From assembly GCA_021462845.1 (NCBI GenBank), contig JAJTXU010000015.1:1-38429 (forward strand): DNA of 38,429 nt. Direction: 5' to 3'. The notes beneath the pieces were generated by a model. That model was not told the origin of the DNA and did not search any database. It saw only the letters and a list, made by a program, of their open reading frames with translations. Positions 4,142 to 37,731 of the stretch are shown one piece after another. The position numbers and the translations under genes were made by a program. The first letter of the stretch is position 1; each line of letters begins with the position of its first letter. The stretch is from Anaerolineales bacterium (lineage in GTDB: Bacteria; Chloroflexota; Anaerolineae; Anaerolineales; Villigracilaceae).

Positions 4142-5647
4142 CTAGGGTGAATCAGCCGTCAATGGGCGAGGGAAGCGTCTTTGAATCGCTTGAAGGATCG
4201 TCAAGCCGGAGTTGAAGAAGAGTCCAGCCGCGAAGATCGCCGCGTATAACGCGATCAGCCAGTTTGAATTTTGAATCGCCAGCCAGACCGTCCACAGATT
4301 GAAGAGCGCGAGAACCATTTCGAATGGCACGAGCAAATCCATTTTGACGTAATAACGATTGGATGTCCAGTTTTGCGCGCGGGCGGTGATGCCGTATTTC
4401 GGCGTGCGTTCGAACGCGCCCCTGCGCCCCGCCCACACTTGCCACGCGGCGCGAAGCGTGTTGAGCATCAGCCCTGCGCCGAGCGCGGCGAGCGTGACCA
4501 TGTATGGCAGAATTGCGAACCAACGTTTGTGCAGTGATTTTTGCGCGACGGCGACCAACGCGATCGGCGCGAGCGCGGTGAAATTGAAGACGACCGCGAT
4601 GCCGAAGAGACTGATCAAGCCCGGATATCGTTCTGAAATTGCGACGACCAACGGATATAAAAACACGCACGCGAATAACAATAAATGAATCAAATAGCCC
4701 GTGAGGTGCAGGCTCGCTTGAATCTTTCGCGCGAGAGTCGCATCGGACTTCCAGATGACAGGGATATAACGAATCGCGCAATCGAATCCGCCATGCGCCC
4801 AACGATGTTGCTGGCGGCGAAATGCAGTGAAGCTCACAGGCAATTCAGAAGGCACTTCAACTTCGCCCGCATACCGCGCGCGCCAGCCGCGCAAATACGC
4901 GCGATACGAAAGATCGAGGTCTTCGGTGAGAGTCTCGGCTTTCCATCCGCCCGAATCAACGATCGCCGTTTTGCGCCACACGCCCGCCGTGCCGTTGAAG
5001 TTAAACCACAAGCCCAGTTGCGAACGCGCGAGTTGCTCCACCGCAAAATGCGCGTCGAGCGAAAGCGATTGCAAAAAGGTCAGCAGCGAATAACTTCCGT
5101 TCAAATGCCCCCAACGCCCTTGCACGAACGCGATGTTATCTTCATCGAAGTATGGAAGAATTTTTTTAAGAAAATCTGGATTGGGAACAAAGTCCGCATC
5201 GAAGACGGCGATGAACTCGCCCTTCGCCGTTTTCAATCCATCAGCCAATGCGCCCGCTTTGAATCCTTGACGGTCGGCGCGATGCAGATGCTGGATGTCA
5301 ATTCCTCTCGCTTGGATGCGACCCACGATTCTCTCGACGAGTGAAACTGTCTCGTCTGTGGAATCATCCAACACCTGGATTTGGAATCGGCCGCGCGGAT
5401 ACTCGAGCGCGGCGGCGGCTTCGATCAACCGTTCGGCGACGTACAATTCGTTGTAGATCGGCAATTGAATGGTAACGAACGGCAACGATTCCACATTGAG
5501 CGGCAAAGGTTTGGACGCAAGCGCGTCGCGTTTTTTCCACGCGTGATAGGAAAGGTACAAAAAGTTCAAGCCGTAGATGAAGAGGGTGGTGACGACGAGA
5601 AAGTAGATTATGGTGACGGGGATGAAGAGAGTGTCGAGGAGGGTCAT
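4142..5647 (-). CDS. Processive family 2 glycosyltransferase (cellulose synthase-like)
   Basis: 501 residues. One membrane helix at ~8-33 is followed by a GT-A catalytic domain with all processive-enzyme motifs: DDSTD (94-98), DAD (150-152), TED (241-243) and QQHRW (279-283). Three or more C-terminal helices then form the membrane channel region. The family polymerises or transfers beta-linked sugars from nucleotide-sugars at the inner face of the membrane. The start overlaps the O-antigen ligase stop as ATGA, so translation is coupled. The GGGAG ribosome binding site seems to come from the palindromic repeat at 5657-5690. Product identity (mannan, glucan or lipid-linked sugar) cannot be told. 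Confidence 0.9.
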   Translation of the reverse strand: MTLLDTLFIPVTIIYFLVVTTLFIYGLNFLYLSYHAWKKRDALASKPLPLNVESLPFVTIQLPIYNELYVAERLIEAAAALEYPRGRFQIQVLDDSTDETVSLVERIVGRIQARGIDIQHLHRADRQGFKAGALADGLKTAKGEFIAVFDADFVPNPDFLKKILPYFDEDNIAFVQGRWGHLNGSYSLLTFLQSLSLDAHFAVEQLARSQLGLWFNFNGTAGVWRKTAIVDSGGWKAETLTEDLDLSYRAYLRGWRARYAGEVEVPSELPVSFTAFRRQQHRWAHGGFDCAIRYIPVIWKSDATLARKIQASLHLTGYLIHLLLFACVFLYPLVVAISERYPGLISLFGIAVVFNFTALAPIALVAVAQKSLHKRWFAILPYMVTLAALGAGLMLNTLRAAWQVWAGRRGAFERTPKYGITARAQNWTSNRYYVKMDLLVPFEMVLALFNLWTVWLAIQNSNWLIALYAAIFAAGLFFNSGLTILQAIQRRFPRPLTADSP

Positions 5648-7029
5648 GATTTCTCCCTCACCCCCAGCCCCTCTCCCGCTGGGAGAGGGGAGTCAATTGC
5701 GGTAGCAACCAATCCCCACGCCAGCCATTGCCAGATTCGGCCGGGGGTGGAGAACCAGGTGTAGTAATCGAAGAAGCCGACGAGGGTGACGGCGAGCAAT
5801 AGTCCCATCGCGCCGATGACATAGGGATTCGCGCGGAGGTCAGCGCGGCGGGAGAATGTCACCCAGGGCAATATCATCAACAGAAAATAAAAGATCGCGC
5901 CGAACATGCCGGTTTCCAGCCCAACGGTCAGCAACGTGAAATGAGGCGGCTGGTAGTTGTATGTTTCGGGAAGTTGGGGGACTTCATCTCGTAATGCAAG
6001 CGGCGAAGCGGACATGCCGACTCCGGTCAATGGGTGTTTGGAAAAAATATGATTGGCAGATTCGATGAGGAACAACCGTTCCTGCACTGCTCCGCGCTCG
6101 GAGCGAACCGCCTCGAACGACCCGCCAGCATTGAAGCGCGCGCCGAAATAGTTTGAATTCCTCACGATGAACGGAAGCAAAACAATTGCTGTGCAAATGA
6201 AAAGCAACGCAAGGGATTTGAGAAATGCCCATCCGCGCGCCTTCGCTTCAAACCAGACGATGAAAATTGATCCTGCCAAAAATGCCAGCCACGCCGAGCG
6301 GGAGAAGGTCATGAGTAACGCGAGGCACATCAAAACAAAAGCAAAACCGAGAATTAGAGAATTCTTTCGTCCGCCGCGCAGATAAACGATCAACAGGATG
6401 AGGAGGCTGAAGGCGAGACATCCGCCCAAAATGTTGGGATGATCGGAAAGCCCATAAGCGCGGAGGATGCGCGTCGCCCCATCCGAAACAATGCTCACGC
6501 CCGACCAGGCTGGGTCGAGCAGATATTCTCCGATGGCTTGCAATCCCAACGAGCGTTGAAGAATGGATTGTGGAATTGCGATCACCGCTTGCAACGCGCC
6601 TTGCAGTCCCACCGCGAGAGCGATGCTAAAAACCGAAAATTGTTCATTGACGATAAAGAGATAGAAAAGAAAAAGCAGGCACAAGCGGATAGCATGATAA
6701 AGGGAGAGCGCGCTGTCCGCGCTTGAAGCAACTGAAATCAGGGCGGAGGCGGTCAATCCCGCGAGCGGAATCCAGACGAAAGCCGGTCCGAGTCGAAATG
6801 GTTTGGGATTGAATCGCCTTGCGAATCCCCATGCGATCAACATAACAAGCAACGCGATGTCGGGCAGAAAGAGGAGGAAATCGGTGTAGTCGCTGTAGAT
6901 CGCTTCGCGTGGACGCGACTGCAACAGGGTTCGTAAGCGAACGGGGGCAAGGATGAGCGTTGCGTAAAACGCGCTTCGCGCAAGTCTCTCTGTCCAATGC
7001 GATGAAGAGTGCGGGGATTTAGAAGCCAT
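5644..7029 (-). CDS. O-antigen ligase/polymerase-like membrane protein (Wzy/WaaL family)
   Basis: 461 residues with about ten hydrophobic segments. A large loop near residues 310-380 contains HPLTGVGMSASPL and later PPHFTLLTVGLETGMFG, matching the periplasmic loop (H...G.G, PH) of the O-antigen ligase Wzy_C family, which joins or polymerises lipid-linked glycans outside the inner membrane. It heads the minus-strand glycan operon. The last ~14 residues (SPLPAGEGLGVREK) are encoded by a palindromic repeat, so the natural C-terminus has been replaced or extended. A TATAAT lies 14 bases before the ATG and no ribosome binding site is visible, suggesting a very short leader. Confidence 0.85.
   Translation of the reverse strand: MASKSPHSSSHWTERLARSAFYATLILAPVRLRTLLQSRPREAIYSDYTDFLLFLPDIALLVMLIAWGFARRFNPKPFRLGPAFVWIPLAGLTASALISVASSADSALSLYHAIRLCLLFLFYLFIVNEQFSVFSIALAVGLQGALQAVIAIPQSILQRSLGLQAIGEYLLDPAWSGVSIVSDGATRILRAYGLSDHPNILGGCLAFSLLILLIVYLRGGRKNSLILGFAFVLMCLALLMTFSRSAWLAFLAGSIFIVWFEAKARGWAFLKSLALLFICTAIVLLPFIVRNSNYFGARFNAGGSFEAVRSERGAVQERLFLIESANHIFSKHPLTGVGMSASPLALRDEVPQLPETYNYQPPHFTLLTVGLETGMFGAIFYFLLMILPWVTFSRRADLRANPYVIGAMGLLLAVTLVGFFDYYTWFSTPGRIWQWLAWGLVATAIDSPLPAGEGLGVREKS
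5657..5690. repeat. CTCACCCC...CCCCTCTCCC palindromic repeat, copy 1
   Basis: The block contains CCCCTCTCCC-GCT-GGGAGAGGGG. A second copy with the same left flank lies at 29843-29875. This one encodes the C-terminus of the O-antigen ligase-like protein and lies directly before the overlapping glycosyltransferase start. Confidence 0.8.
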
Positions 7030-7043
7030 TTTTGGAAGGGGTT

Positions 7044-7051
7044 ATTATAAT
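7044..7051. promoter_or_regulatory. Divergent -10 promoter elements
   Basis: The short palindrome ATTATAAT gives a minus-strand TATAAT (7044-7049) and a plus-strand TATAAT (7046-7051) between the divergent glycan operon and the GT4 genes. The minus-strand element lies 14 bases from the ATG at 7029, implying a leader of about 8 bases. The plus-strand one would start near 7058, about 48 bases before the ATG at 7106. No convincing -35 boxes are visible. Confidence 0.4.
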
Positions 7052-7105
7052 TACGAATTGGACGTATCATGCCCGAATTTATCTTACCCACACAAACGGA
7101 CCATC

Positions 7106-8143
7106 ATGCCGCGTGACATCCTCGTCAACGGACGGTTTCTTGCGCGGCGTATCACGGGCAATGAACGATATGGCTGTGAAATTTTGCGTTGCTTCAAGAA
7201 TGGGTATCGCGTTGAGAAAACACAAGCGCAGGGAATATTGGGTCATGCGTGGGAGCAATTCATCCTGCCAACGAAGTTAAAGCGCGATTCTGTTCTGTGG
7301 TCGCCCGCGAACTCGGGCCCGCTTGCGATTCAGAATCAGGCTTTGACCATTCACGATCTGAGTCCGCTTGAACACCCTGAATGGTTCACAACAAGCTATT
7401 CATCGTGGTATCGTTTGTTCTTGCCCATGCTTGCCAAACGAGTCCGCCTCATTTTCACGCCTTCAGAATACGTGAGGCAAAAAGTGATAAAGAGGTTCGG
7501 GGTCGAGCATGTGATCGTCACACCCAATGGAGTGGAGATTGCTTCGTCGGGCTGCGCTTCGTCTTCGTTCGCCTATCGGCTCACTGCGCTCAGCGCGAGC
7601 CCTCCTCGCAATGACAGTAATTTCCCGCAGAAGTACATTTTATTCGTCGGCTCGATCCAACCGCGCAAGAATCTCGAGGGCTTGATGAGGGCATGGCATC
7701 AGATCAAAGACAAGTTCAAGGATACGTGGCTGATCGTTGCAGGAGAATGGGGACGCGTGTTTCGGTCGGTCAAGTTCTTTGCCGAGGAGCGAATCCGATT
7801 TTTGAATTATGTCGCGGACGAACATTTGCCGAGTTTGTACGCCAATGCGAAACTGTTCGTACTCCCTTCGTTCGATGAGGGCTTTGGCTTGCCTGCGCTG
7901 GAGGCGATGGCGCGCGGAACCCCGGTCATCGTTTCGGATGGCGGCGCGTTGCCTGAAACCGTCGGGGATGCGGGATTCATTTTCAGTTTAGAGGAGCCTG
8001 ATAGCCTTGCACAGGCAATCGAGAAATGTTTGAACGATGAAACTCTACGCGCGTCGCTTATCGAAAAAGGATTGGCACGAGCGAAAGATTTCTCATGGCA
8101 AAGCACGGCAGACTTGATCTGGAAGACATTGAATGAACTCTAA
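7106..8143 (+). CDS. GT4-family glycosyltransferase
   Basis: About 345 residues from the ATG at 7106. This start is chosen because the family's N-terminus begins with a VNGRFL...TG.ER pattern, present as VNGRFLARRITGNERYG; an in-frame TTG at 7058 would add an unrelated extension. The second Rossmann domain has LFVGSIQPRKN and the EX7E motif EGFGLPALE, the retaining GT-B glycosyltransferase signature that binds nucleotide-sugar. It transfers a sugar during glycan assembly at the cytoplasmic membrane face. A repeat-derived peptide (SSGCASSSFAYRL...PPRNDS, bases 7538-7617) is inserted just before the second domain, a plausible linker position. It is co-directional with the next GT4 gene. Confidence 0.88.
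   Translation: MPRDILVNGRFLARRITGNERYGCEILRCFKNGYRVEKTQAQGILGHAWEQFILPTKLKRDSVLWSPANSGPLAIQNQALTIHDLSPLEHPEWFTTSYSSWYRLFLPMLAKRVRLIFTPSEYVRQKVIKRFGVEHVIVTPNGVEIASSGCASSSFAYRLTALSASPPRNDSNFPQKYILFVGSIQPRKNLEGLMRAWHQIKDKFKDTWLIVAGEWGRVFRSVKFFAEERIRFLNYVADEHLPSLYANAKLFVLPSFDEGFGLPALEAMARGTPVIVSDGGALPETVGDAGFIFSLEEPDSLAQAIEKCLNDETLRASLIEKGLARAKDFSWQSTADLIWKTLNEL
7538..7617. repeat. GATTGCTTCGTCG...CCTCGCAATGACA repeat inside the glycosyltransferase gene
   Basis: The block begins GAGATTGCTTCGTCG and ends CCTCGCAATGACA, ends shared with the intergenic copies at 10293-10364 and 28525-28650. It is in frame within the GT4 gene and encodes a Ser/Ala-rich insert of about 26 residues. Confidence 0.75.
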
Positions 8144-8150
8144 TTTTCCC

Positions 8151-8199
8151 GGTGGTCGAGTAGTCCCGCGATGCTCGTCGCGGGACGTATCGAGACCAC
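8151..8199. repeat. GGTCGAGTAG...ATCGAGACC palindromic repeat
   Basis: Terminal GGTGGTCGAGTAG and CGTATCGAGACCAC frame a 9-bp hairpin (GTCCCGCGA-TGCTCG-TCGCGGGAC). It fills the gap between the two GT4 genes and runs almost to the ATG at 8201, leaving no obvious ribosome binding site for that gene. Related copies occur at 11892-12031 and 15922-16062. Confidence 0.8.
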
Positions 8200-8200
8200 A

Positions 8201-9298
8201 ATGAACTCTAAACCGCATATCGCCTTTGTTCTTGACACGCTCCCCTCCATCGGCGGCGGGGAGAAGGTGTTGTTCGCCGCGCTGGAGGCGTATCCACACG
8301 CGGACATTTTCACGTTGATCTACAACAAAAAAGTATTCGCCCACTCGCCGATTGCGAATCGAAAGGTGAACACCTCGTGGCTCGATTCGCTTCCGTTCGC
8401 GCATACACATCATCGCTATCTGCTTCCGCTCATGCCGTCTGCCATCGAACGGATCAATTTGCGCGAGTACGACACTATCGTTTCATTCAATTACGCAGTG
8501 GCGAATGGCGCGACGAATCACAATGCGATGCGTCACGTGTCGTACACGCACACGCCATTGCGTTACGCATGGACTGACATCAACATCAACGGGACTCGCG
8601 CACGCCGCAATTTCATCCTCGACAGATACATGCGATCCTTCCGCGCGTGGGATCAACGCGCCGCGTCGCGCGTCCATGCGATGGCGACCAACTCGCACAC
8701 CGTCCGCGAGCGGATTCGGGAGGCGTATCAACTCGAGGCGAGGGTGATCCATCCGCCCGTCGAGGTGAATCGTTTTCATCCAAGCCTGCAGCGTGAAAAT
8801 TATTTCATCACCGTCACGCGACTCGTCCCACACAAGCGAGTCGAGTTGCTCGTGGGGGCGTTCAACCAAATGAATCTTCCGCTTATCATCGTCGGCGATG
8901 GACCCGAACTGCCGCGTTTGAGAAGGATGGCAAATTCAAATATTGAGTTGATAGGTTTTCAGTCGGATGAAAATGTTGCCGAACTGTTGAGCAAGGCGCG
9001 CGCGTTCGTCTGCGCGGCGGAGGAGGATTTCGGCATCGCCATCGTGGAGGCGCAGGCGGCGGGATGTCCCGTCATTGCGTATGGCGCGGGCGGCGCATTG
9101 GAAACGGTTGAGGAGGAAGTCACGGGTTTGTTTTTTGCACAGCAAACCGAAGCGAGTCTGATCGAAGCGCTTCGTCGGTTTGAAAAAAACTATCAAGCAT
9201 TCGACTCGCGGGAAATAAAAAAACGCGCCGAGCGATTCAACAAGGCGCGTTTTCTAAACGAGTTTCGAGAATTTGTGTCGGGTTTTGCGCTTTTATAA
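8201..9298 (+). CDS. GT4-family glycosyltransferase
   Basis: 365 residues from the ATG at 8201. An in-frame ATG at 8171 lies inside the palindromic repeat and is rejected. The N-terminal domain has the Gly-rich SIGGGEKVLFAAL loop. The C-terminal domain has YFITVTRLVPHKRVELLV and the EX7E-type stretch EDFGIAIVEAQAAGCPVIAYG, so it is a retaining GT-B sugar transferase. It resembles mannosyl- or rhamnosyl-transferases used in polysaccharide assembly; the exact donor is unknown. It is paired with the preceding GT4 gene, and translation may rely on coupling because the upstream repeat displaces a ribosome binding site. Confidence 0.88.
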   Translation: MNSKPHIAFVLDTLPSIGGGEKVLFAALEAYPHADIFTLIYNKKVFAHSPIANRKVNTSWLDSLPFAHTHHRYLLPLMPSAIERINLREYDTIVSFNYAVANGATNHNAMRHVSYTHTPLRYAWTDININGTRARRNFILDRYMRSFRAWDQRAASRVHAMATNSHTVRERIREAYQLEARVIHPPVEVNRFHPSLQRENYFITVTRLVPHKRVELLVGAFNQMNLPLIIVGDGPELPRLRRMANSNIELIGFQSDENVAELLSKARAFVCAAEEDFGIAIVEAQAAGCPVIAYGAGGALETVEEEVTGLFFAQQTEASLIEALRRFEKNYQAFDSREIKKRAERFNKARFLNEFREFVSGFALL

Positions 9299-10292: not shown

Positions 10293-10364
10293 GTCGTTGC
10301 GAGCCGCCGCTCTTGTTCTTTGGCGGCGAAGCAATCTCCTAGCTAGGTGGAGATTGCTTCGGGC
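10293..10364. repeat. GCAATCTCC-type repeat
   Basis: GTCGTTGCGAGCCGCCG...TTTGGCGGCGAAGCAATCTCC is followed by GGTGGAGATTGCTTCGGG, giving two opposed half-elements (GAAGCAATCTCC / GGAGATTGCTTC). It is the same family as 7538-7617 and 28525-28650. It lies between the SDR and FAD oxidoreductase genes. Confidence 0.7.
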
Positions 10365-27925: not shown

Positions 27926-27994
27926 TTTTCTTGATTATAATGGGTTTGCGCGACTTACACCGTTCGGACTCGTATATTCTTCTTGGAGGCTCAC

Positions 27995-28516
27995 ATGGAT
28001 GATTTCTTTCAAAAAGTAACAAGTATGCAAGACCCGTTCAAAAAATTGCTCTCGTTCATCCCCGGTTTCGGCGGATACATCGAGCGGCAAAACCGCCGCG
28101 ACGCGGACAAACTCCTGCGCGACACTGTCGCTCAGCGTTTCGAGGAACAGCACAAGCGCACCTCGCAACTGCAAACCGACCTCGTCAGCGCGGGCAAGAT
28201 CGAATACGTGGACGACATGGAGAAGGCGGCGATCAAACTCCAAACGTTCATTGACAAGATCAGCCGCGCCCCGCGCGGATACTCCGGTCTGTTCGACGCG
28301 GTGAAGATCAACGAGAAAGAACTGGAGGCGATCTACCAATTCGACGCCGCGTTCTTCGATCTCGCTGAGCAAGTCGGGCGCGCGCTCGACAACGTGGAGC
28401 AATCGCTCGCCGACGATGCCGCGCTTCCCGCCGCGATCCGCAACCTCGCTACCGTAGCGAGGCTGGCGGTGGAGACCTACGAAAAACGCGCCGAAGTCGT
28501 GAACGGATCGAATTAA
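27995..28516 (+). CDS. Conserved hypothetical coiled-coil protein
   Basis: 173 residues from the ATG at 27995, with a strong GGAGG five bases upstream; the in-frame TTG at 27983 lies before it. The N-terminus has LLSFIPGFGGYIERQNRRDADKLLR, then a long helix with QRFEEQHKRTSQLQTDLV, AAIKLQTFIDKI and YSGLFDAVKINEKEL. I recall a similar layout in Chloroflexota and cyanobacterial proteins of unknown function. A TATAAT lies at 27936-27941. Cytoplasmic; no known catalytic motif. It is a single gene, separated from the molybdenum hydroxylase cluster by repeats. Confidence 0.75.
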   Translation: MDDFFQKVTSMQDPFKKLLSFIPGFGGYIERQNRRDADKLLRDTVAQRFEEQHKRTSQLQTDLVSAGKIEYVDDMEKAAIKLQTFIDKISRAPRGYSGLFDAVKINEKELEAIYQFDAAFFDLAEQVGRALDNVEQSLADDAALPAAIRNLATVARLAVETYEKRAEVVNGSN

Positions 28517-28524
28517 ATAACAAA

Positions 28525-28650
28525 TGTTGTTGCGAGGGCGTCCTGAGCGGAGCGTAGCGAAGTCGAAGGATCGCCCGAAGCAATCTCCTGTTTCCAGGTG
28601 GTTGCTTGTTCGAGGAGATTGCTTCGTCGCTTCGCTCCTCGCAACGACAT
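28525..28650. repeat. Composite of two repeat families before the hydroxylase cluster
   Basis: GTTGTTGCGAGGGCG and CCGAAGCAATCTCC are the half-elements of the 10293 family and enclose TCCTGAGCGGAGCG...GTCGAAGGA of the 10421 family; then GAGGAGATTGCTTCGTCG...CTCCTCGCAACGACA follows. One family is therefore nested in another. The element ends about ten bases before the hydroxylase start and fills the whole gap. Confidence 0.75.
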
Positions 28651-28660
28651 GATGGATATT

Positions 28661-30106
28661 ATGTGGCACACTTACATCAACGCAACCTCCATTGACGAAG
28701 TTTTACAATCGTTAAAAGAAAAAGGGGAACATGCTCGCGTCATTGCGGGCGGAACTGATCTCATTCTCGAACTCGAGCGCGGCGTCCGCAAGGGGATCGA
28801 AACCGTGATTGACGTGACGCGCATCCCCGACCTCGACAAAATCACAATAGACGAAGACGGCATCATCCATCTCGGTCCGCTCGTCACGCACAACCATTGC
28901 GTCGAATCGAAATTGATCCGCGAACGCGCCTATCCGCTCGCCCGCGCGGCATGGGAAGTGGGCGCGCCGCAGATTCGCAATCGCGGCACGATCGCGGGCA
29001 ACCTCATCACCGCTTCGCCCGCCAACGACACGATCACGCCGCTGATGGCGCTCGGCGCATCGGTCACTTTGCGATCTATAAATCAAACACGCACAGTTGC
29101 GCTCAAGGATTTTTACACCGGCGTCCGCAAGACGGTGATGCAACCTGACGAAATGCTCGTGGACATTTCCTTCCCCGCGATGAAGACTACCCAGCGCGGC
29201 ACGTTCATCAAACTTGCGTTACGCCGCGCGCAAGCGATCTCCCTCGTGGACGTTGCGATTCTTCTCGACCTTGATTCTGATTCTGTTTCCTCAGCCTCCA
29301 TCACGCTTGGAGCCGTCGCCCCGACGATCATCCACGCGCCCGAAGCGGAGAAATATCTCGAGGGCAAAAAACTGACGGACGATGTCATTGCCGAAGCCGC
29401 GCGCCTGACGATGGACGCATCCAAGCCAATTGACGACATTCGCGGAAGCGCGGCATACCGGAAAGAAATGATTCGCGTCTGCACAGCGCGTGGATTGAAA
29501 TCCATCCGTGACGGCAAAGAACGAGACGGAATGCCCGACGATGCGGTCTTGCTGTGGGGCAAGCAGACGATGGACGCTGGACAATTGACGATTCGCGAGT
29601 CGTCGAATTCAATTGACGCAACAGTTAACGGCAAAAAATATTCACTGAAGAACGGTCACGAAAAAACATTGTTGCGATTCTTGCGCGAGGATGTCGGCTT
29701 GACCGGCACAAAAGAAGGCTGCGCCGAGGGCGAATGCGGCGCGTGTACCGTGTTCCTCGATGGTAAAGCAGTGATGGCATGTCTCGTCCCTGCGCCGAGG
29801 GCGCATGGCGCGGAGGTTATGACGATTGAGGGATTATCTGACCTCACCCCTGCCCCTCTCCCTGAGGGAGAGGGGATTCTGCACCCAGTCCAAGAAGCGT
29901 TCATTAAGCATGGCGCGGTACAATGCGGATATTGCACGCCGGGCTTCATCATGTCGGCGGCGATGTTGATGGAAGAAAAAGAAAATCCGACCAAGAATGA
30001 GATCGAACAGGCAATCACCGGCAACCTGTGCCGATGCACAGGCTATTACAAGATCGTGCAAGCCATCGAAGACGCCCAAGCGATGGCGGAGGTGAGACAT
30101 GGGTAA
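28661..30106 (+). CDS. Molybdenum hydroxylase FAD/[2Fe-2S] fusion subunit
   Basis: 481 residues from the ATG at 28661; the frame is open from 28598 but that part is repeat DNA. An ATG at 28649 is an alternative. Residues ~1-290 are the FAD-binding subunit: VIAGGTDLILELERG, then AAWEVGAPQIRNRGTIAGNL. Residues ~320-480 are the ferredoxin-like subunit, with C354/C359/C362 in GCAEGECGACTVF, then the distal cluster ligands QCGYC (~425) and NLCRCTGYY (~457). The fusion passes electrons from the molybdopterin subunit to FAD. A repeat-derived insert (LTPAPLPEGEG, bases 29843-29875) lies between the two cluster regions. Confidence 0.92.
   Translation: MWHTYINATSIDEVLQSLKEKGEHARVIAGGTDLILELERGVRKGIETVIDVTRIPDLDKITIDEDGIIHLGPLVTHNHCVESKLIRERAYPLARAAWEVGAPQIRNRGTIAGNLITASPANDTITPLMALGASVTLRSINQTRTVALKDFYTGVRKTVMQPDEMLVDISFPAMKTTQRGTFIKLALRRAQAISLVDVAILLDLDSDSVSSASITLGAVAPTIIHAPEAEKYLEGKKLTDDVIAEAARLTMDASKPIDDIRGSAAYRKEMIRVCTARGLKSIRDGKERDGMPDDAVLLWGKQTMDAGQLTIRESSNSIDATVNGKKYSLKNGHEKTLLRFLREDVGLTGTKEGCAEGECGACTVFLDGKAVMACLVPAPRAHGAEVMTIEGLSDLTPAPLPEGEGILHPVQEAFIKHGAVQCGYCTPGFIMSAAMLMEEKENPTKNEIEQAITGNLCRCTGYYKIVQAIEDAQAMAEVRHG
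29843..29875. repeat. CTCACCCC...CCCCTCTCCC palindromic repeat, copy 2, inside the hydroxylase gene
   Basis: CCCCTCTCCC-TGA-GGGAGAGGGG preceded by CTCACCCCTG, matching the copy at 5657-5690. It is in frame and encodes LTPAPLPEGEG, which sits between MTIEGLSD and ILHPVQEAF, a loop between the two iron-sulfur regions. Confidence 0.85.
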
Positions 30107-30521
30107 ATACACAACTCAGGTAAAACAAAAAGAGACTGTGCGCGTGCGCGGCGTGCATCCCGTCATGAAAGGATTGGGATGCTTCATCATGATCCTCCTG
30201 CCGGTCCTTTCATACGGTGTAGCGATGCTTCTGGTCAATTATGGCATTGGGCAACGCTGGCCCATCCCTGTGGAGTGGCTGGGCACGCCACAGTTCCACC
30301 CGTGGTTGTGGAAAGCGCGCGGGCTGGCTTCCATCTTCCGGTTCTTGCAGACTCAAACCAACCTGTATGCCAACGTTGTTTTTGCGCTCGGAGTTTGGGT
30401 GGTGATCGGCGGATTCATGGCGATCTTTTTCGGCTATTTATACCGTTTTCTTGGTCCTTCGGAATACGGTCCCATGGATGTGCCTCCGATCCGCGCGAAA
30501 GTGAAACGGTATAAAAGGTAA
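30099..30521 (+). CDS. Small membrane protein inside the molybdenum hydroxylase operon
   Basis: 140 residues. It overlaps the fusion subunit by eight bases (ATGGGTAA), and the molybdopterin subunit starts nine bases after it. There are two membrane helices, CFIMILLPVLSYGVAMLLVNYG (~28-49) and NVVFALGVWVVIGGFMAIFFGYLY (~92-115), with a basic N-terminus and a C-terminal tail ending in RAKVKRYKR. No motif for cofactor binding. Its place between the two enzyme subunits suggests it may anchor the enzyme or take up electrons (inference). I do not recognise the family. Confidence 0.75.
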   Translation: MGKYTTQVKQKETVRVRGVHPVMKGLGCFIMILLPVLSYGVAMLLVNYGIGQRWPIPVEWLGTPQFHPWLWKARGLASIFRFLQTQTNLYANVVFALGVWVVIGGFMAIFFGYLYRFLGPSEYGPMDVPPIRAKVKRYKR

Positions 30522-30529
30522 TCGTTGCA

Positions 30530-32719
30530 ATGACTGTTCAAACGATCGGCAAATCCCTGCCCCGCGTGGATGCGCGCGGAAAAGTGACCGGTAGTTCTCC
30601 GTATTCAGGCGATCTGTCGATGCCGGGTATGCTACACATGAAAATGCTGTTTGCCGGGCGACCACATGCCCGCATCCTGAGCATCGACACATCCAAGGCG
30701 GAAGCCGCGCCCGGTGTGGTGGCTGTATACACGGCAAAGGATGTGCCGGTCAACGAGTATGGCTTGCAATGGCAGGATCAACCCGTGTTGTGCGGACCCG
30801 GCTCCGCAAAGCCCGGCGCGGATGTGGTCCGATTCGTCGGCGACCAGGTTGCGGTGGTGGTGGCAAACACCGAAGCCCAAGCCGCGTCGGCGGTGAAACT
30901 GATCGAGGTGGAGTATGCAGACCTCCCCGTCGTGATAGACGCGGAAGAGGCGATGAAGCCCGGCGCAACGCGCATCCATGAACATATCGGCGATTCGAAT
31001 ATCTGCGTCCATTACAAGATCCGCCGGGGAAATGTCGATGAAGCGTTCCAATATTCGGATGTGATCGTCGAAAGCGAATATCGCACGCCGGTGCAGGAAC
31101 ACGCGTATCTGCAACCCGAGGCGGGGCTGGCGTACATCGACGAGGCGGGGTTGATCACGATCGAATGCGGAGGGCAGTGGACACACGAAGACCAGCATCA
31201 AGTGGCGCACGCGCTGGGTATGCCAGACGAGAAAATTCGCGTTGTGTACCCTGCCATCGGCGGCGCGTTTGGCGGGCGCGAGGATATGTCGGTGCAGATC
31301 GCGCTCGCGCTGGCGGCGTGGAAGTTGCAGAGACCGGTGCGCATCATCTGGTCGCGGCAGGAATCGATGATCGGGCACGGCAAACGCCACGCCACGGTCA
31401 TCCGCGCCAAATGGGGTGCGACAAGTAACGGGAAAGTAAATGCAATTGAAAATGTGATCATCGGCGATGGCGGCGCATACATGTACACGTCGAATAAGGT
31501 GTTGGGGAATTCCGCCATCACATCAACGGGTCCGTACTTCATCCCAAATGCAAAAACCGATGTGTATGGCGTGTACACCAACAACGTGCCCGGCGCGGCA
31601 TTCCGCGGGTTCGGCGCGCCGCAGGCGTTGTTCATGGCGGAAATGCAAATGGACAAACTCGCGGAAAAACTCGGCATGGACCCGGTCAAATTTCGCTTGA
31701 AGAACGCGTTACGCGATGGCGATCCGCTGGGTGTTGGCACTCCTTCGCCAAGCCCGGTCAGTGTTGTGCAATGTATCGAAGCGGCAAGGGATCGGTTTGG
31801 GTGGGAAGATGGAAAGTGGAAAGGGAAACATGGCACTTCGCATTTGAGGCGCGGAAGAGGATTTGCCGCAGGGTTCAAAAACATTGGCTTTTCCTTCGGC
31901 TATCAAGAGAACTGTTGGGCGAAGATCGAACTGCATGGCGCGACCAAGATCGAGCGGGTGGTCTTGTATCACTCCGGCGCGGAGGTCGGACAAGGCGCGC
32001 ACACGGTCATGATGCAAATGGCGGCGGAAGCGATCGGCGTTCCCTTCGAGAAAGTGAATCTGGTTGCATCCGACACGGTCAAAACAGGAAACTCCGGTTC
32101 GGTATCCGCTTCGCGCATGACGTTCATGTCTGGCAACGCGATTCGCGGCGCGGCTGAGCTGGCTCTGAAAAAATGGGAGGCAGAAGAACGCCCCGCCATC
32201 GCTGAATACAAATACCTCGCGCCGCTTACCACGCAATTCGACCACGACACCGGCTATTCCACACCAAATTTTGCCTACGCTTTCGTGGCGCAAGCCGCCG
32301 AAGTGGAAGTGGATACCGAAACCGGTCATGTGCGCGTGATCCGCATCGTCTCTGCCGATGATCTTGGCAAGCCGATCAATCCCGCTCTCGTGGAAGGACA
32401 GATCGAAGGCGCGGTTGTGCAAGCCCAGGGCTACACCCTGCTTGAAGATTACAAAACCAAAAACGGGCGCGTGCTCACAGATCAATTCAGTACCTACCTC
32501 ATCCCTACCGTTTGGGATATTCCTGAAAAAGTGGAATCGGTCATCCTCGAAATCCCCGACCCCAACGGACCGTGGGGCGCGCGCGGCGTGGGCGAACTGC
32601 CCTACCTTGCGGTAGCCCCCGCCATTGCGTCCGCGATCCACGACGCTACCGGCGTATGGATCGATGAATTTCCATTCACACCCGAACGCGTGCTGAGGGC
32701 GCTGGGCAAAATACTCTAA
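30530..32719 (+). CDS. Molybdenum hydroxylase molybdopterin-binding subunit (XdhA-like)
   Basis: 729 residues. The start LPRVDARGKVTGSSPYSGDL is typical of the aldehyde oxidase/xanthine dehydrogenase large subunit. Cofactor-binding blocks are GGAFGGRED (~243), AFRGFGAPQ (~357), and GQGAHTVMMQMAAEAIG (~490); the catalytic glutamate is in GARGVGELPYLA (~689). AFRGFGAPQ replaces the AYXCSFR loop of CO dehydrogenase, so this is not CoxL. It hydroxylates an aromatic, purine or aldehyde substrate using water. Nearby yqeB hints at a selenium-containing cofactor. Substrate unknown. Confidence 0.93.
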   Translation: MTVQTIGKSLPRVDARGKVTGSSPYSGDLSMPGMLHMKMLFAGRPHARILSIDTSKAEAAPGVVAVYTAKDVPVNEYGLQWQDQPVLCGPGSAKPGADVVRFVGDQVAVVVANTEAQAASAVKLIEVEYADLPVVIDAEEAMKPGATRIHEHIGDSNICVHYKIRRGNVDEAFQYSDVIVESEYRTPVQEHAYLQPEAGLAYIDEAGLITIECGGQWTHEDQHQVAHALGMPDEKIRVVYPAIGGAFGGREDMSVQIALALAAWKLQRPVRIIWSRQESMIGHGKRHATVIRAKWGATSNGKVNAIENVIIGDGGAYMYTSNKVLGNSAITSTGPYFIPNAKTDVYGVYTNNVPGAAFRGFGAPQALFMAEMQMDKLAEKLGMDPVKFRLKNALRDGDPLGVGTPSPSPVSVVQCIEAARDRFGWEDGKWKGKHGTSHLRRGRGFAAGFKNIGFSFGYQENCWAKIELHGATKIERVVLYHSGAEVGQGAHTVMMQMAAEAIGVPFEKVNLVASDTVKTGNSGSVSASRMTFMSGNAIRGAAELALKKWEAEERPAIAEYKYLAPLTTQFDHDTGYSTPNFAYAFVAQAAEVEVDTETGHVRVIRIVSADDLGKPINPALVEGQIEGAVVQAQGYTLLEDYKTKNGRVLTDQFSTYLIPTVWDIPEKVESVILEIPDPNGPWGARGVGELPYLAVAPAIASAIHDATGVWIDEFPFTPERVLRALGKIL

Positions 32720-32727
32720 ATGCGGCA

Positions 32728-33609
32728 ATGCTATTCCCTGTCCGTAATGAAACGAAAGAGATGAATGCCGACGCCCGCAACTCAGCGGGCGGTTCTTTCA
32801 TACAACTTCCCGGCGGCATTACCCATTACGAAGCGGGCGGGAACGAATCAAGCGAACTTGTCGTTTTAGCGCATGGCTTTTCCGTGCCCTATTTTATTTA
32901 CGATCCCACGTTTGAATTTCTTTCACGCTCAGGGTTTCGCGTCATACGATACGACTTGTTCGGTCGCGGCTACTCGGACCGCCCGCAAGCCAAATATGAT
33001 ATCGACTTCTTCGTCGACCAACTTGCGGATTTACTGGACGCCCTGCGCATCACCTCCCCAGTGAGTTTGGTCGGGCTATCCATGGGCGGACCCATCGCCT
33101 CGACGTTTACCGTCCGTCACCCGGAGCGGATTCGCAGTCTCGTGCTGATCGACCCCGCCGGCGCCAAGCCCATCGCCATGTCTCCCCTGCTGAGGGCGGC
33201 GAAACTGCCCAAGGTGGCAGAGACAATCTTACGTCTGGTTGGAAGCGATTTCATGGTCAAAAGTATCGCCGACGATTTTTTCGATCCCGCGCTGGTGGCG
33301 CATTTTCAAGAAAGGTACAGAGTCCAGATGCAATACAAAGGATTCATGCGCGCCATCTTAGCCACGATCCGCAATGGGATGCTCGATTCGTTTTTGGATG
33401 TGTACCGGCAACTCGGCGCCATGGGGGGGCGCGTGCTATTATTGTGGGGACGCAACGACTACACGGTTCCTTTTGAACACAGCGCGTTGATTCGCGCGGC
33501 AATTCCAAACGTGGAATTCCACGCGATCGAAGGATGCGGGCATCTTCCGCATTACGAAAAGCCCGAACTGGTGAACCCGATCCTGTTAGAGTTTTTGAGG
33601 CGAGCATGA
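32728..33609 (+). CDS. Alpha/beta hydrolase
   Basis: 293 residues. The fold and triad are clear: oxyanion-region HGFS (49-52), nucleophile S118 in GLSMGG, D244 in WGRNDYTVP and H272 in GCGHLPHYEKP. RYDLFGRGYSDRP is the usual strand-5 loop. It hydrolyses an ester, lactone or C-C bond of a small molecule. It begins eight bases after the hydroxylase subunit and overlaps the next gene as ATGA, so it belongs to the same transcript and might act on the hydroxylated product. The start lacks a strong ribosome binding site; the Met codon at 32761 is an alternative. Confidence 0.88.
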   Translation: MLFPVRNETKEMNADARNSAGGSFIQLPGGITHYEAGGNESSELVVLAHGFSVPYFIYDPTFEFLSRSGFRVIRYDLFGRGYSDRPQAKYDIDFFVDQLADLLDALRITSPVSLVGLSMGGPIASTFTVRHPERIRSLVLIDPAGAKPIAMSPLLRAAKLPKVAETILRLVGSDFMVKSIADDFFDPALVAHFQERYRVQMQYKGFMRAILATIRNGMLDSFLDVYRQLGAMGGRVLLLWGRNDYTVPFEHSALIRAAIPNVEFHAIEGCGHLPHYEKPELVNPILLEFLRRA

Positions 33610-34310
33610 TCCGCAAATTGATCGATTATTTTTCTCACAACAAATACCGCCTGACGATGTTCGCCCTGCTGGCTGGGGCAACTATCATCTCAGTCGCCAT
33701 CTGGCGTTTCCGCGTGGAGTACAGCGGGAGCGGCAATTACACGTTTCTGATTTGGAATCTGTTCCTGGCATGGATTCCGTTCCTCATTGCCTACTTCACA
33801 TACACGCTTACCTTATCGAGGCGCTGGGTTTATGTGATCGTGCCGATCACCGCTTTCTTCTGGCTGATCTTCTTTCCGAACGCGCCGTACATCCTGACCG
33901 ATTTTCAACACCTGGATTACTGGCACGACGTGCCGGTCTGGTACGATGTGATGTTGCTGGTCTGGTTCGCGTTCACCGGGCTGTTGCTGGGAATGGTTTC
34001 GTTGTTCCTCATGCAAGAGATCATTCGGCGCGAGTTTGGGCGTTGGGTCGGCTGGGGGTTTGTCGCCCTCGTCGCCGGGCTGAGCAGCGCGGGCGTGTAT
34101 GTGGGTCGCTTTCTGCGCTGGAATTCGTGGGACATTTTTTACAACCCCGCCGGGATGGCGCAATACGCCTTGCAAAACATGCAAGACCCCAGCCTGCAAT
34201 CCATCGGCTTCACCAGCCTGTTCGGATTGTTCTTCCTGTTCTTATACATTACACTATATACGTTCGGGCATCTTTTATTGGAGCGGCAGGCGAACTTACA
34301 AGGACAATGA
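33606..34310 (+). CDS. DUF1361 membrane protein, first copy
   Basis: 234 residues from the ATG at 33606, which overlaps the hydrolase stop; the longer upstream frame is not used. About six membrane helices; the blocks IWNLFLAWIPFLIAY, FFPNAPYILTDFQHL, VWYDVMLLVWFAFTGLLLG and RFLRWNSWDI mark DUF1361. Function unknown. A related gene lies at 35001-35759. It is translationally coupled to the hydrolase and to the DinB-like gene. Confidence 0.88.
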   Translation: MIRKLIDYFSHNKYRLTMFALLAGATIISVAIWRFRVEYSGSGNYTFLIWNLFLAWIPFLIAYFTYTLTLSRRWVYVIVPITAFFWLIFFPNAPYILTDFQHLDYWHDVPVWYDVMLLVWFAFTGLLLGMVSLFLMQEIIRREFGRWVGWGFVALVAGLSSAGVYVGRFLRWNSWDIFYNPAGMAQYALQNMQDPSLQSIGFTSLFGLFFLFLYITLYTFGHLLLERQANLQGQ

Positions 34311-34864
34311 TGAACAAACAAGACATGCAATTCCTCTTCCAATACAACCAGTGGTCGACGAAAAAAATTCTCGACGCCGCGTCGAACCTGACACAGGATC
34401 AGTTCCTCGCGCCCGCAGATTTCCCGCAGGGAGGTTTGCGCGGCACGCTCACCCACGCCTTGTTCGCAGAGTGGATCTGGCGGAATCGCTGGGAGGGAAC
34501 ATCGCCCGCGCAGCGCATCAAACCCGAAGAGTTCCCAACCTTCGAATCTCTCCGCGCGCGCTGGCTGGAGGAGGAAAGCCTCCTGCTAACGTTTGTGGAT
34601 GGTCTCACCGACGAGAAGCTGAGCAACGCCTTCAGTTACACAAACACCGAGGGCAAGGCGTTAACGAGAATTCTGTGGCAATCCATGGCGCACGTGGTTA
34701 ACCACGGAACACAACACAAAACAGAAGCCGCGGCGATCCTCACCGCTCTCGGTCACTCGCCGGGCGATATCGATATGATCTGGTTTGCGGCGGAATATAA
34801 AGAACGTGAATTCGGGTTAGTGAATTGGGACGCAGACACCTGCACTTGCGTCAGGTGCAAGTGA
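34307..34864 (+). CDS. DinB/YfiT-family protein with repeat-derived C-terminus
   Basis: 185 residues from the ATG at 34307, which overlaps the DUF1361 stop (ATGATGA) and follows AAGGA. It is a four-helix bundle with typical blocks FQYNQWSTKKILDAASNL, GTLTHALFAEWIWRNRW and HVVNHGTQHKTEAAAILTALG; the His residues of HALFAE and NHGTQH are the usual metal ligands. Such proteins are thiol-S-transferase- or hydrolase-like. The last ~12 residues (DADTCTCVRCK) come from the palindromic repeat that follows, so the native C-terminus was replaced and gained three Cys. Confidence 0.88.
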   Translation: MMNKQDMQFLFQYNQWSTKKILDAASNLTQDQFLAPADFPQGGLRGTLTHALFAEWIWRNRWEGTSPAQRIKPEEFPTFESLRARWLEEESLLLTFVDGLTDEKLSNAFSYTNTEGKALTRILWQSMAHVVNHGTQHKTEAAAILTALGHSPGDIDMIWFAAEYKEREFGLVNWDADTCTCVRCK

Positions 34865-34953
34865 AAACGCTGATTCACGCTGATGAAAAAGAAAAAATCT
34901 GCGTTTTCTGCGTTCACACCGCACTTGCGTTCGGTGCAAGTGTCAGCGTCCAA
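34827..34953. repeat. GGGACGCAG...CAGCGTCC repeat, copy 4, with two nested hairpins
   Basis: The host repeat is of the 18488 family (GGGACGCAG...AAACGCTGATTCACGCTGAT...AAATCTGCGTTTTCTGCGT...CAGCGTCC). Two related hairpins are inserted: CACCTGCACTTGCGTCAGGTGCAAGTG (~34836-34862) and CACCGCACTTGCGTTCGGTGCAAGTG (~34917-34942). Confidence 0.8.
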
Positions 34954-35000
34954 AAAGATGGACTAATCCTTATCTCGAACTGACGTTAAATAATTCAACA

Positions 35001-35759
35001 ATGGCTTCTTTGAAAAATCGTTTTCGCAATTTCCTCATCCGCAATCGGTACAATCTGGCGGTCTTTACCCTGCTCAACGTGGCCTGCGCCATGTGCATTG
35101 CGCTCGTCGGCGCGCGGGTGGCATACACCGACTCTGGGCGGCGGCTGGACTTGATCTGGAATTTATTCCTCGCATGGATTCCCTTCATCCTCGCTTACAT
35201 TGCGCACGCCTTCTCGTGGCGGCGATTGACGTTGTACATCTTGATTCCCTTCGTCTCTTTCCTTTGGCTGATCTTTTTCCCCAACGCGCCGTACATGCTC
35301 ACCGACCTGCAAGACCTTGCGCGCGGCTCCTTTGGCGCGCCGCTCTGGTACGATGTAATCATTGTCGTCTGGTGTTCGTGGACAGCGATGTTATTGGGCG
35401 TGGTCTCGCTGTATCTGATGCAGGATATCGTCCAGCGGACGTTCGGGCGGTTCATCGGCTGGATATTCGTCTTCGTCATTTCTGCCTTGAGCAGTTTTGG
35501 AATCTACATCGGGCGATTCGTCCGTTTGAATTCGTGGGACATTCTGCAAAACCCGGCAGAAACCGCTATGGGAATTCTCGGTTTGGTCATCGACCCAAGT
35601 CGGCGGCTGGCGGCATTCACTTTACTCTACGCGGTTTTCTTTATCTACATATATCTTCTCTTGTATTCATTTAGCCACATGTTGCAAACGCAAAACTTGA
35701 AAGCCAACGAAACGCCCGAGCAATTGGCAGGGACTCAACCATCCGATGCGCGGCGATAA
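35001..35759 (+). CDS. DUF1361 membrane protein, second copy
   Basis: 252 residues, about six or seven helices, clearly related to 33606-34310 in the same positions: IWNLFLAWIPFILAYIAH, FFPNAPYMLTDLQDL, LWYDVIIVVWCSWTAMLLG and RFVRLNSWDILQNP. The C-terminus has an extra ~20 polar residues. It overlaps yqeB by 14 bases. Its separation from the first copy by the DinB gene and a repeat suggests an old tandem duplication with later insertion. Function unknown. Confidence 0.88.
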   Translation: MASLKNRFRNFLIRNRYNLAVFTLLNVACAMCIALVGARVAYTDSGRRLDLIWNLFLAWIPFILAYIAHAFSWRRLTLYILIPFVSFLWLIFFPNAPYMLTDLQDLARGSFGAPLWYDVIIVVWCSWTAMLLGVVSLYLMQDIVQRTFGRFIGWIFVFVISALSSFGIYIGRFVRLNSWDILQNPAETAMGILGLVIDPSRRLAAFTLLYAVFFIYIYLLLYSFSHMLQTQNLKANETPEQLAGTQPSDARR

Positions 35760-36567
35760 CGCGGTTTTAATTCGAGGCGGCGGAGACCTCGCCACAGGTG
35801 TCGCTCTGCGCTTGCATCGGTCGGGCATACGCGTTGCGATCGCCGAACTTCCGCAGCCGTTGGCGGTGCGCAGAACGGTCTCATTCTGCGAAGCGGTTTA
35901 CGAGGGGGCGCACAAAGTGGAGGGCGTTGAATCAAGGCTGGTCGAAGCGAATCAACTGTCCACGTGGGATGAAGCGGGCTGCATCCCCGTGATCGTCGAC
36001 CCGGATGCGAATCTGCTCAGGGTGATTCAATTTGCGGTCGTTGTCGATGCGCGGCTTTTGAAAAGTCCGCCGGCGCCGCTCCCAGCCCCCGCCCCGCTTC
36101 ACATCGGACTTGGACCTGGTTTCACAGCGGGGAGCGATTGCGACGCCGTCATCGAAACCCGCCGAAGTCACACGCTCGGGCGCGTGTATTGGTCGGGATC
36201 GACCCAGCCTGATTCCGGCGAACCCGAAGGCGACCCGCGCCGCGTGCTTCGGGCTCCTGCCGGTGGTGTGATCGCTGGCATAAAAAATATCGGTGAGTAT
36301 TGCATGGAAGGCGAAGTGATTGCTGTGATCGACAACCAACAGAACGTAATTAGCCCATTTGGCGGTATGTTGCGCGGCTTGATCCGCTCCGGCTTGCGGG
36401 TGACCAAAGGGTTGAAGATCGGCGATGTGGATGTTCGAAATGATCCCAGCGCGTGTTTTCTCGCCTCCGATAAATCGCTCGCCATTGGCGGCGGCGCGCT
36501 GGAGGCGATCCTCGCTAAGCCTGAGATCAGGTCAAAAGTATTTCCCCCAAGTCATTATTCAGAATAA
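35746..36567 (+). CDS. yqeB: YqeB-family selenium-dependent molybdenum hydroxylase accessory protein
   Basis: 273 residues. It opens with a Rossmann-like VLIRGGGDLATGVALRLHRSG. Then LHIGLGPGFTAGSDCDAVIETRRSHTLGRVYWSG, LRAPAGGVI, GLKIGDVDVR and SDKSLAIGGGALEAIL make it a clear member of the YqeB (EF2563) family. The family is linked by genome context to molybdenum hydroxylases that need labile selenium and may help insert selenium into the cofactor. It closes a cluster that begins with the hydroxylase subunits, so a functional link is likely. The start overlaps the previous gene. The SPPAPLPAPAPL stretch may be an expanded loop. Confidence 0.88.
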   Translation: MRGDNAVLIRGGGDLATGVALRLHRSGIRVAIAELPQPLAVRRTVSFCEAVYEGAHKVEGVESRLVEANQLSTWDEAGCIPVIVDPDANLLRVIQFAVVVDARLLKSPPAPLPAPAPLHIGLGPGFTAGSDCDAVIETRRSHTLGRVYWSGSTQPDSGEPEGDPRRVLRAPAGGVIAGIKNIGEYCMEGEVIAVIDNQQNVISPFGGMLRGLIRSGLRVTKGLKIGDVDVRNDPSACFLASDKSLAIGGGALEAILAKPEIRSKVFPPSHYSE

Positions 36568-36594
36568 CCTTGAATTGTAATGTTGGAGACACAT

Positions 36595-36711
36595 GACTTA
36601 CGCAGATCGAAAACCTTTTGCCGCGAATTTCACTAATTCACGCGAATTTTTTAATAAATTAGCGGAAATTCGCGTAATTCGCGGCTTGGTATTGGGGTTT
36701 TGCGTAAGTCC
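36595..36711. repeat. MITE-like element with GACTTACGCA/TGCGTAAGTC ends
   Basis: Perfect 10-bp terminal inverted repeats, GACTTACGCA (36595-36604) and TGCGTAAGTC (36701-36710), enclose GCCGCGAATTTCACTAATTCACGCG and the partly complementary CGCGTAATTCGCGGC. The element is noncoding. A related palindrome with degenerate ends lies at 27820-27925. A half-element (GGACTCCGCGGATTTCACTGATT) follows at 36733-36765. No other content is seen in 36568-36800. Confidence 0.65.
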
Positions 36712-36801
36712 TATTAACTTCATTTTTGAACACGGACTCCGCGGATTTCACTGATTTTCACGGATCATCCGCATCGGGGGCTTGCAACGAACGTACATCC
36801 G

Positions 36802-37731
36802 TTGTATGCTTGCAAAATGACGCTCGCGCTTTCGCTTCGACGGTCGATCTCTCTTCCTCGTGAGATTTCTACGGGCAATGGTTCGCCTCGAAAGGTCCAT
36901 TGGGTTGGAGGCAAAACGCCCGTTGAGCCAAAGCAAAATCATGCGCAACACGGGGGTGACGATTCGGGTCGGAGGTCTTCAGGCGTTTATCACAGCCTTT
37001 CAGAGATCAAACTTGGAGAAGTCCACCAGGCATATCGCAATTTCCAGCCCCTTATCGTTCCAAGTGATACGCCCGGCTGGGTTGCGCCCGGTTATTTCTG
37101 TTCCATTCCCCTCGCGCAGGCGGTTGAATATCGCCCTTCGGCAATTTTTGGGCGGGTGAAAGCCTGTTACCCTTCAGATGGTTATGTTCAAAATATCCGC
37201 GAAATGGAGTTGTTGTTTCCCAAGCCGGGGAGCGAGCCGCTGGAATTGAATATTCGCCGTCACGATATCGATTTTGAATCCGGTGCGCTTGCGCAAAGTT
37301 ATCACGCTAAAATAAAAATCTTCGTCACGCCCGCCGAGCAGACAGACTTTGGGCATTTCGAGACTATTTTCCTGCAACACGGGTACGCTCCCGAGTTCAT
37401 CAACCGCTATGTCGATCTGGTGGATGTGAACGAATTCAATCACAATGATTTTCCCGATGTGGTGATCGTCAGTTCACGCTGGTTTGAGTTCGCCAGTGAA
37501 GTATCTGGCGGACAGGTGTATGAGAAACTACATCAACTGATCAAATGGAACAAAATCGTTGCGAACTATCATCCCTTGAATACTGAAAATGAGGTCCGTA
37601 CCCTGAACCGTATATTTGGATTCAAGCATGGGTTTACCGACACCGTCCTGATCGAACCGGAGACGCCCGCGCAAACCCTTGAGTTCGTATCGCGGACGTT
37701 TGATAGAATTTTCATGCAAGGTATGAGATAA
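36802..37731 (+). CDS. Hypothetical protein, N-terminus doubtful
   Basis: The open frame gives 309 residues, but the first ~75 (Arg/Ser-rich, no structure) look unlike a natural start; the convincing part begins near YRNFQPLIVPSDTPGWVAPGYF (about 37040). Later blocks are IFLQHGYAPEFINRYVDLVDVNEF, DVVIVSSRWFEFAS and KIVANYHPL. No membrane helix. DVVIVSSRWFEFAS resembles the C-terminal soluble parts of some membrane mannosyltransferases, but this is weak. It could be the 3' part of a larger, broken gene. Not recognised. Confidence 0.5.
   Translation: MYACKMTLALSLRRSISLPREISTGNGSPRKVHWVGGKTPVEPKQNHAQHGGDDSGRRSSGVYHSLSEIKLGEVHQAYRNFQPLIVPSDTPGWVAPGYFCSIPLAQAVEYRPSAIFGRVKACYPSDGYVQNIREMELLFPKPGSEPLELNIRRHDIDFESGALAQSYHAKIKIFVTPAEQTDFGHFETIFLQHGYAPEFINRYVDLVDVNEFNHNDFPDVVIVSSRWFEFASEVSGGQVYEKLHQLIKWNKIVANYHPLNTENEVRTLNRIFGFKHGFTDTVLIEPETPAQTLEFVSRTFDRIFMQGMR

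Follow-up and report, generated by a model that had tools for sequence, protein, structure and literature searches.

The insertion of labile selenium into molybdenum hydroxylases has been described as the least understood of the selenium pathways, with the mechanism of YqeB not known (PMC11448449). On xanthine and uric acid, a C. difficile yqeB deletion resembles selD mutants, and deletion of yqeC alone gives no obvious phenotype (PMC11448449). SelD, YqeB and YqeC are stated to be the marker set of the selenium cofactor (PMC9312934), and this trait is recorded mainly in Firmicutes and Enterobacteriales, with Chloroflexi mentioned for selenocysteine decoding (PMC5322559). Searched for the word Chloroflexi (not for Chloroflexota), the main texts of PMC5029168, PMC9312934 and PMC2432076 gave no hit. 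Here we analysed a stretch of 38,429 nucleotides (hereafter the window) from an uncultured Anaerolineales bacterium (GCA_021462845.1, contig JAJTXU010000015.1, positions 1 to 38,429). The window is contig C57 of a draft genome of 4.17 Mb that is 94.57% complete, and it carries a co-directional operon for a fused flavin adenine dinucleotide and iron-sulfur (FAD/FeS) subunit, a molybdopterin (Mo) subunit and YqeB (Table 1). We put at roughly 0.55 the probability that this operon encodes a molybdenum hydroxylase that is selenium-loaded in this organism, possibly tethered to the membrane by a small two-helix protein, TM2, and acting on a substrate other than xanthine.

The window YqeB exceeds the equivalog cut-off of TIGR03309 (Table 1), and the same genome holds SelD and YqeC, which complete the marker set. 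SelD scored 350.9 bits against a cut-off of 125 and contains a single in-frame TGA, in the motif CAG-TGA-ASKLS, which we take to be where the catalytic Cys or Sec lies. SelB is also present (363 bits, cut-off 242); thus selenocysteine use is indicated as well, and SelD is not an orphan. YqeC (157 bits, cut-off 73) is fused to a MocA-type domain and is followed on contig C117 by a second MocA-like gene, both MocA-type matches falling under the TIGR03310 cut-off (147 and 161.5 versus 186 bits). YqeB- or YqeC-type fusions with neighbours such as MobA-related proteins are on record, so that the YqeC-MocA fusion is already known in kind and not new (PMC2432076). In three genomes (G085, G137 and G143) SelD lies in open frames of 743–750 aa without a TGA, possibly a fusion protein, and a second SelD with a TGA is also present. 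The sequence-only reading of this locus had proposed a selenium-dependent molybdenum hydroxylase operon and named SelD, YqeC and cofactor-maturation genes as what the genome should be searched for; SelD, YqeC and MocA-type domains were found.

We then compared 101 genomes (the window's own and 100 relatives) under 15 family codes, defining orthologs of the Mo subunit by at least 50% identity. Orthologs were found in 92 genomes and SelD over the cut-off in 82; YqeB was matched in 80 (78 over the cut-off) and YqeC in 83 (81 over the cut-off). All 80 YqeB genomes had a YqeC match, 78 of them over the cut-off. YqeB and the subunit were found linked in 10 of the 15 families: the YqeB start lay on the same strand and no more than about 6.2 kb downstream of the subunit start in 57 of the 78 genomes holding both. 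The gene order is kept in relatives, which would not be expected by chance. In 49 of the 80 YqeB genomes no more than 3.5 kb separated YqeC from YqeB; none of the 17 genomes of the window's genus was among these.

A second set comprised the best 80 of at least 525 named relatives of the large subunit, fetched as loci; these 80 belong to Anaerolineales or to other Anaerolineae or Chloroflexi groups, with the exception of L208, titled Chlorobiaceae. Within the fetched stretches we matched FAD/FeS in 66 loci, YqeB in 33, YqeC in 31 (called at 55 bits or more by tblastn, a level that a diverged YqeC domain could escape), TM2 in 31 (E≤1e-3), XdhC in 23 and the hydrolase in 15. The fullest order was XdhC, FAD/FeS, TM2, Mo subunit, hydrolase, YqeB and YqeC-MocA, with parts absent in places. 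A MocA domain followed the subunit without a YqeB or YqeC match in 10 of the 80 loci; two of these (L232 and L236), both from genomes with SelD, end with the contig within 0.8 kb past the subunit. YqeC without nearby YqeB followed the subunit in eight loci (L209, L237, L240, L245, L246, L247, L252 and L254), four of them with a MocA match, and a ninth (L194) was cut by the contig end. In L115 (genome G097, about 4800–8900) SelD over the cut-off, YqeC, YqeB and, by eye, an XdhC-like gene are clustered; that genome yielded no Mo-subunit ortholog by the 50% identity criterion.

SelD tended to accompany YqeB. Genome-wide SelD searches took in 50 of the 80 named loci, namely all 10 MocA-alone loci, the eight in which YqeC occurs without YqeB, 13 lacking all three and 19 that carry YqeB, the last picked for readable sequence. 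Ten loci that match contigs of the 101-genome set in length were omitted (L175, L177, L181, L182, L183, L186, L187, L191, L223 and L241), 20 others were left out, and some further overlap between the two sets is possible. YqeB was scored by its presence beside the subunit and not anywhere in the genome. Where YqeB lay behind the subunit, SelD was over the cut-off in 18 of 19 genomes; the counts were 3 of 10 for MocA alone, 4 of 8 where YqeC occurred without YqeB, and 9 of 13 where none of the three was matched. The YqeB and MocA-alone classes differed (P = 0.0005, Fisher's test), and YqeB and SelD were associated across the 101 genomes (P = 7e-5), neither value being corrected for kinship. A FastTree phylogeny of 137 subunits, 50 of them named and 87 from the relatives, shows 14 or more changes of the YqeB state (for the named loci, YqeB beside the subunit). 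Nine independent contrasts could be drawn on supported branches; on average SelD changed in the same direction as YqeB in 4.9 of them and in the opposite direction in 0.2, and did not differ in 3.9. With kinship allowed for, the co-variation of YqeB and SelD is only suggestive.

The catalytic subunit has the xanthine oxidase family domains, and its catalytic Glu and cofactor motifs are intact. Before active-site positions were counted, five of the 92 orthologs were removed for being shorter than 640 aa. Among the remaining 87, Gln216, Glu251, Asn327, Arg359 and Gln488 were invariant, Glu689 was present in 86 (with one gap) and Phe358 in 84. Asn327 aligns to an arginine of R. capsulatus xanthine dehydrogenase (XDH) that we take to be a substrate-binding residue; bovine Glu802 and Arg880 are presumably the residues that hold the purine. 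The window enzyme thus retains the glutamate, as Glu251, and has asparagine at the position of the arginine. The E. faecalis and Collinsella selenium-dependent XDHs (Se-XDHs), and the genome's own C179 enzyme, retain the arginine. Since the position is asparagine in all 87 orthologs counted, xanthine is unlikely to be the substrate, and judging from these residues the enzyme probably acts on something else.

On a 23-sequence FastTree tree, rooted at the midpoint, the window family joined the C179 enzyme and the two Se-XDHs with support of 1.0. The nicotinate dehydrogenase of Eubacterium barkeri, of which only an N-terminal stretch was used, joined this group at 0.69; E. coli XdhA and XdhD, the H. 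marismortui pair and the C113 enzyme fell on the opposite side (0.99). The window family as a group had support of 0.2 with a distant member from family f10 and 0.98 without it. The large subunit was accordingly not placed in a selenium-free clade, a placement that the sequence-only reading had set as its test by phylogeny. It remained under the cut-off of TIGR03311, the Se-XDH model (487.2 versus 830.45 bits).

TM2 is basic at its start and in its tail, carries an HPxWRGxG motif and has two long helices, which the structure model (predicted local distance difference test score, pLDDT, 83.1) places at residues 21–52 and 89–118. A fold search returned a single PDB match at E = 8.1, which we set aside. 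From these parts a course of reaction may be proposed. Together the FAD/FeS and molybdopterin subunits make up a xanthine oxidase-family molybdenum hydroxylase. A MocA-type cytidylyltransferase would give the cytosine-dinucleotide form of its cofactor, and YqeB and YqeC, with selenophosphate made by SelD, would place labile selenium on the molybdenum in place of sulfur. TM2 possibly tethers the FAD/FeS subunit at the membrane, where FAD could hand electrons to a membrane acceptor, for example quinone. The substrate might be a small heterocycle or an aldehyde, and the hydrolase may act on the substrate or the product.

Several observations weigh against selenium as a partner of this particular enzyme. 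Nine genomes (G068, G070, G071, G081, G082, G084, G093, G095 and G096) keep an ortholog at 53–62% identity with neither YqeB nor SelD over the cut-off; G070 and G095 of these retain YqeC. Seven of the nine fall in three places among YqeB-bearing genomes on the tree, the sequences of G082 and G095 being too short, and a further class of five ortholog-bearing genomes has SelD without YqeB. The family is not confined to selenium-using genomes, and selenium use is therefore not a fixed trait of it. No alignment column separates orthologs with selenium genes from those without, the criterion being a residue shared by at least 90% of the orthologs in YqeB genomes (n = 76) but by no more than two of the seven in genomes lacking YqeB and SelD. 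The contrasts that allow for kinship gave a median sign-test P of 0.0625 (range 0.031–0.69), and YqeB and the subunit were not seen together in 21 of the 78 genomes with both, some views being cut by contig ends. SelD here probably also serves selenocysteine, so that its presence is unspecific. The window genome encodes six MoCoBD_1 proteins, and the C179 enzyme lies nearer the TIGR03311 model (748 bits, still under the cut-off of 830) than the window enzyme does, with its Glu/Arg pair kept. Furthermore, YqeB lies near an XdhD-like FeS-Mo hydroxylase of the C113 type, not the window type, in genome G063 (L095, 13096–18890), from which YqeB may serve several hydroxylase clades. The operon's YqeB could on these grounds serve other hydroxylases, chiefly the Se-XDH-like C179 enzyme or the XdhD-like C113 enzyme (best score to TIGR03313); the window enzyme would then have ordinary sulfur, and common regulation or a MocA used in common would account for the linkage. 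We consider this unlikely. The survival of window-type orthologs without SelD would fit it, but a close C179 homolog also persists in G071, G084 and G096 without YqeB and SelD, and persistence is thus not special to the window enzyme. YqeB, moreover, stands behind the window-type subunit across most of the families. In G066, which is 91% complete, the single MoCoBD_1 protein found is the ortholog, yet YqeB, YqeC and SelD are all over their cut-offs, with the enzyme and YqeB on different contigs. If G066 uses the selenium cofactor, the window-type enzyme is the sole candidate seen there, barring missing sequence.

YqeB might instead have a different, selenium-independent role in the maturation of a sulfur-type hydroxylase. 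YqeB (HP1) homologs have been noted in organisms without SelD (Zhang et al. 2008, PMC2432076), and 8 of our 80 YqeB genomes had no SelD over the cut-off, including G049, which is 100% complete. Six of the eight are, however, less than 90% complete, and G018 has a SelD fragment. With the window YqeB over a selenium-linked equivalog cut-off, and the C. difficile yqeB deletion growing like selD mutants, we regard such a role as improbable. A further explanation, compatible with any of the others, concerns TM2, which could be a general membrane protein that travels with the FAD/FeS gene and is no tether. TM2-like proteins occur in three genomes (G061, G075 and G088) without a MoCoBD_1 match, also a point against our proposal, so that the wider TM2 family is not confined to the enzyme; 9 of 84 FAD/FeS loci have no TM2 beside the gene, although one of these, G003, has TM2 and a broken FAD/FeS match. 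Against this stand a TM2 match in 87 of the 101 genomes, in single copy in 85, and its position directly after the FAD/FeS gene in 75 of the 84 loci, in 63 of these at a distance of 60 bases or less from where the FAD/FeS match ends. TM2 follows the FAD/FeS gene even in G028 and G049, where the Mo subunit lies elsewhere. We give the general-protein explanation somewhat less than an even chance.

We therefore retain the proposal of a selenium-loaded hydroxylase for this organism, and consider that the enzyme is probably selenium-loaded here and not in every relative. The sequence-only reading stands in part: SelD is present and the large subunit groups with Se-XDHs, and selenium dependence as a property of the whole family did not hold. 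More tentatively, and with the odds clearly against it in our judgement, the Anaerolineae may have a membrane-tethered molybdenum hydroxylase with a constant catalytic subunit that receives either selenium or sulfur as its chalcogen, depending on whether a YqeB-YqeC cassette behind it has been gained or lost. If true, selenium and sulfur versions of a single enzyme would occur in nature as a paired series. Close relatives with and without the selenium genes offer a direct comparison for labile-selenium insertion, and the selenium-cofactor trait would be extended to a widespread, mostly uncultured group.

Table 1. Genes of the operon region in the window
Feature	Coordinates	Strand	Matches and remarks
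177-aa protein	27983..28516	+	TTG start listed, ATG at 27995; weak NF047596 match, 46.7 bits (cut-off 210)
Fused FAD and double [2Fe-2S] subunit	28661..30106	+	PF00941 (5-173), PF03450 (184-280), PF00111 (321-371), PF01799 (388-470)
TM2, 140-aa two-helix membrane protein, candidate membrane tether	30099..30521	+	Matched no Pfam/NCBIfam family
Molybdopterin (catalytic) subunit, 729 aa	30530..32719	+	PF01315, PF02738, PF20256
Alpha/beta hydrolase, GLSMGG motif	32728..33609	+	PF00561
DUF1361 membrane protein a	33606..34310	+	PF07099, 144 bits
DinB-superfamily protein	34307..34864	+	PF05163, 57.7 bits
DUF1361 membrane protein b	35001..35759	+	PF07099, 138 bits
YqeB, selenium-dependent molybdenum-cofactor protein	35746..36567	+	TIGR03309, 275.5 bits (cut-off 220)

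Several neighbouring genes are coupled, by an 8-base overlap at 30099, ATGA at 33606, ATGATGA at 34307 and a 14-base overlap at 35746. In the fused subunit the FAD domain precedes the FeS domain, and its translation shows eight cysteines in the pair of FeS motifs. The co-directional layout, the coupling and every gene that the sequence-only reading listed, down to the embedded two-helix protein, were confirmed by these matches and by the conservation and model of TM2. The conserved unit extends further upstream than that reading had placed it, past 28661 to the 177-aa gene. The partners, which it had called unusual, differ in age. TM2 adjoins the operon in several families, and the hydrolase in families f1, f7, f8, f9 and f12. 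DUF1361, DinB and the 177-aa gene were matched only in loci of the window's own family within the 101-genome set, the 177-aa gene lying in most of them some 0.6 kb ahead of the FAD/FeS gene and having no match in loci of other families. In linked loci outside the window's family (n = 15) the YqeB start is 2.2–2.4 kb from the subunit start, that is, directly behind the subunit; the intervening genes of the window thus look like a local addition, and DUF1361 and DinB look like family-level additions. The closest solved structures to the hydrolase are esterases and meta-cleavage-product hydrolases, and an attempt to read the substrate from it was dropped, the matches being generic.

Other features were seen at these loci. 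A conserved protein of about 570 aa, starting MERTVPxTAS, lies between the FAD/FeS or TM2 gene and the place of the Mo subunit in L145, L151, L107, L156 and L264, and is inside the operon in several families other than the window's. Downstream of YqeB, a 309-aa protein (36802–37731) had no match in Pfam or NCBIfam, and its tblastn matches beside the operon were confined to the window's genus. Between the 177-aa and FAD/FeS genes, an inverted pair, CGAAGCAATC / GATTGCTTCG, at 28576–28626 recurs at 10326–10361 and looks like a dispersed repeat.

Among known systems, the Se-XDHs (TIGR03311; E. faecalis, Collinsella) share with the window enzyme the grouping of the large subunit. In E. faecalis xdh stands with XdhC, mocA, selD, yqeC and yqeB, and in Anaerolineae XdhC, YqeB and YqeC-MocA flank the operon in many loci. 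They differ in that the window FeS part is fused to FAD and not to the Mo subunit, in the asparagine in place of their arginine and in the low TIGR03311 score. Among the ten window proteins at 27983–37728, Pfam and NCBIfam searches gave no purine-pathway family besides the hydroxylase itself. R. capsulatus XDH (1jro_A) has its FeS part at the chain start, whereas in the window fusion FeS follows FAD. The E. barkeri nicotinate dehydrogenase (3HRD), a selenium enzyme (Haft and Self 2008, PMC2276186), also belongs to the xanthine oxidase family, and its large subunit aligns to the window enzyme at 281 bits. It consists, however, of separate large, medium, FAD and FeS chains, whereas the window has an undivided Mo subunit and a fused FAD/FeS subunit, and so does not share the split architecture of a nicotinate dehydrogenase; 3HRD also has Leu and Arg at the window positions Glu251 and Asn327. 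In E. coli, yqeB-yqeC-mocA with xdhD and xdhABC form an accessory set in one region, as do those relatives of the window in which YqeB and YqeC-MocA follow the Mo subunit, although XdhA and XdhD themselves lie across the tree from the window enzyme.

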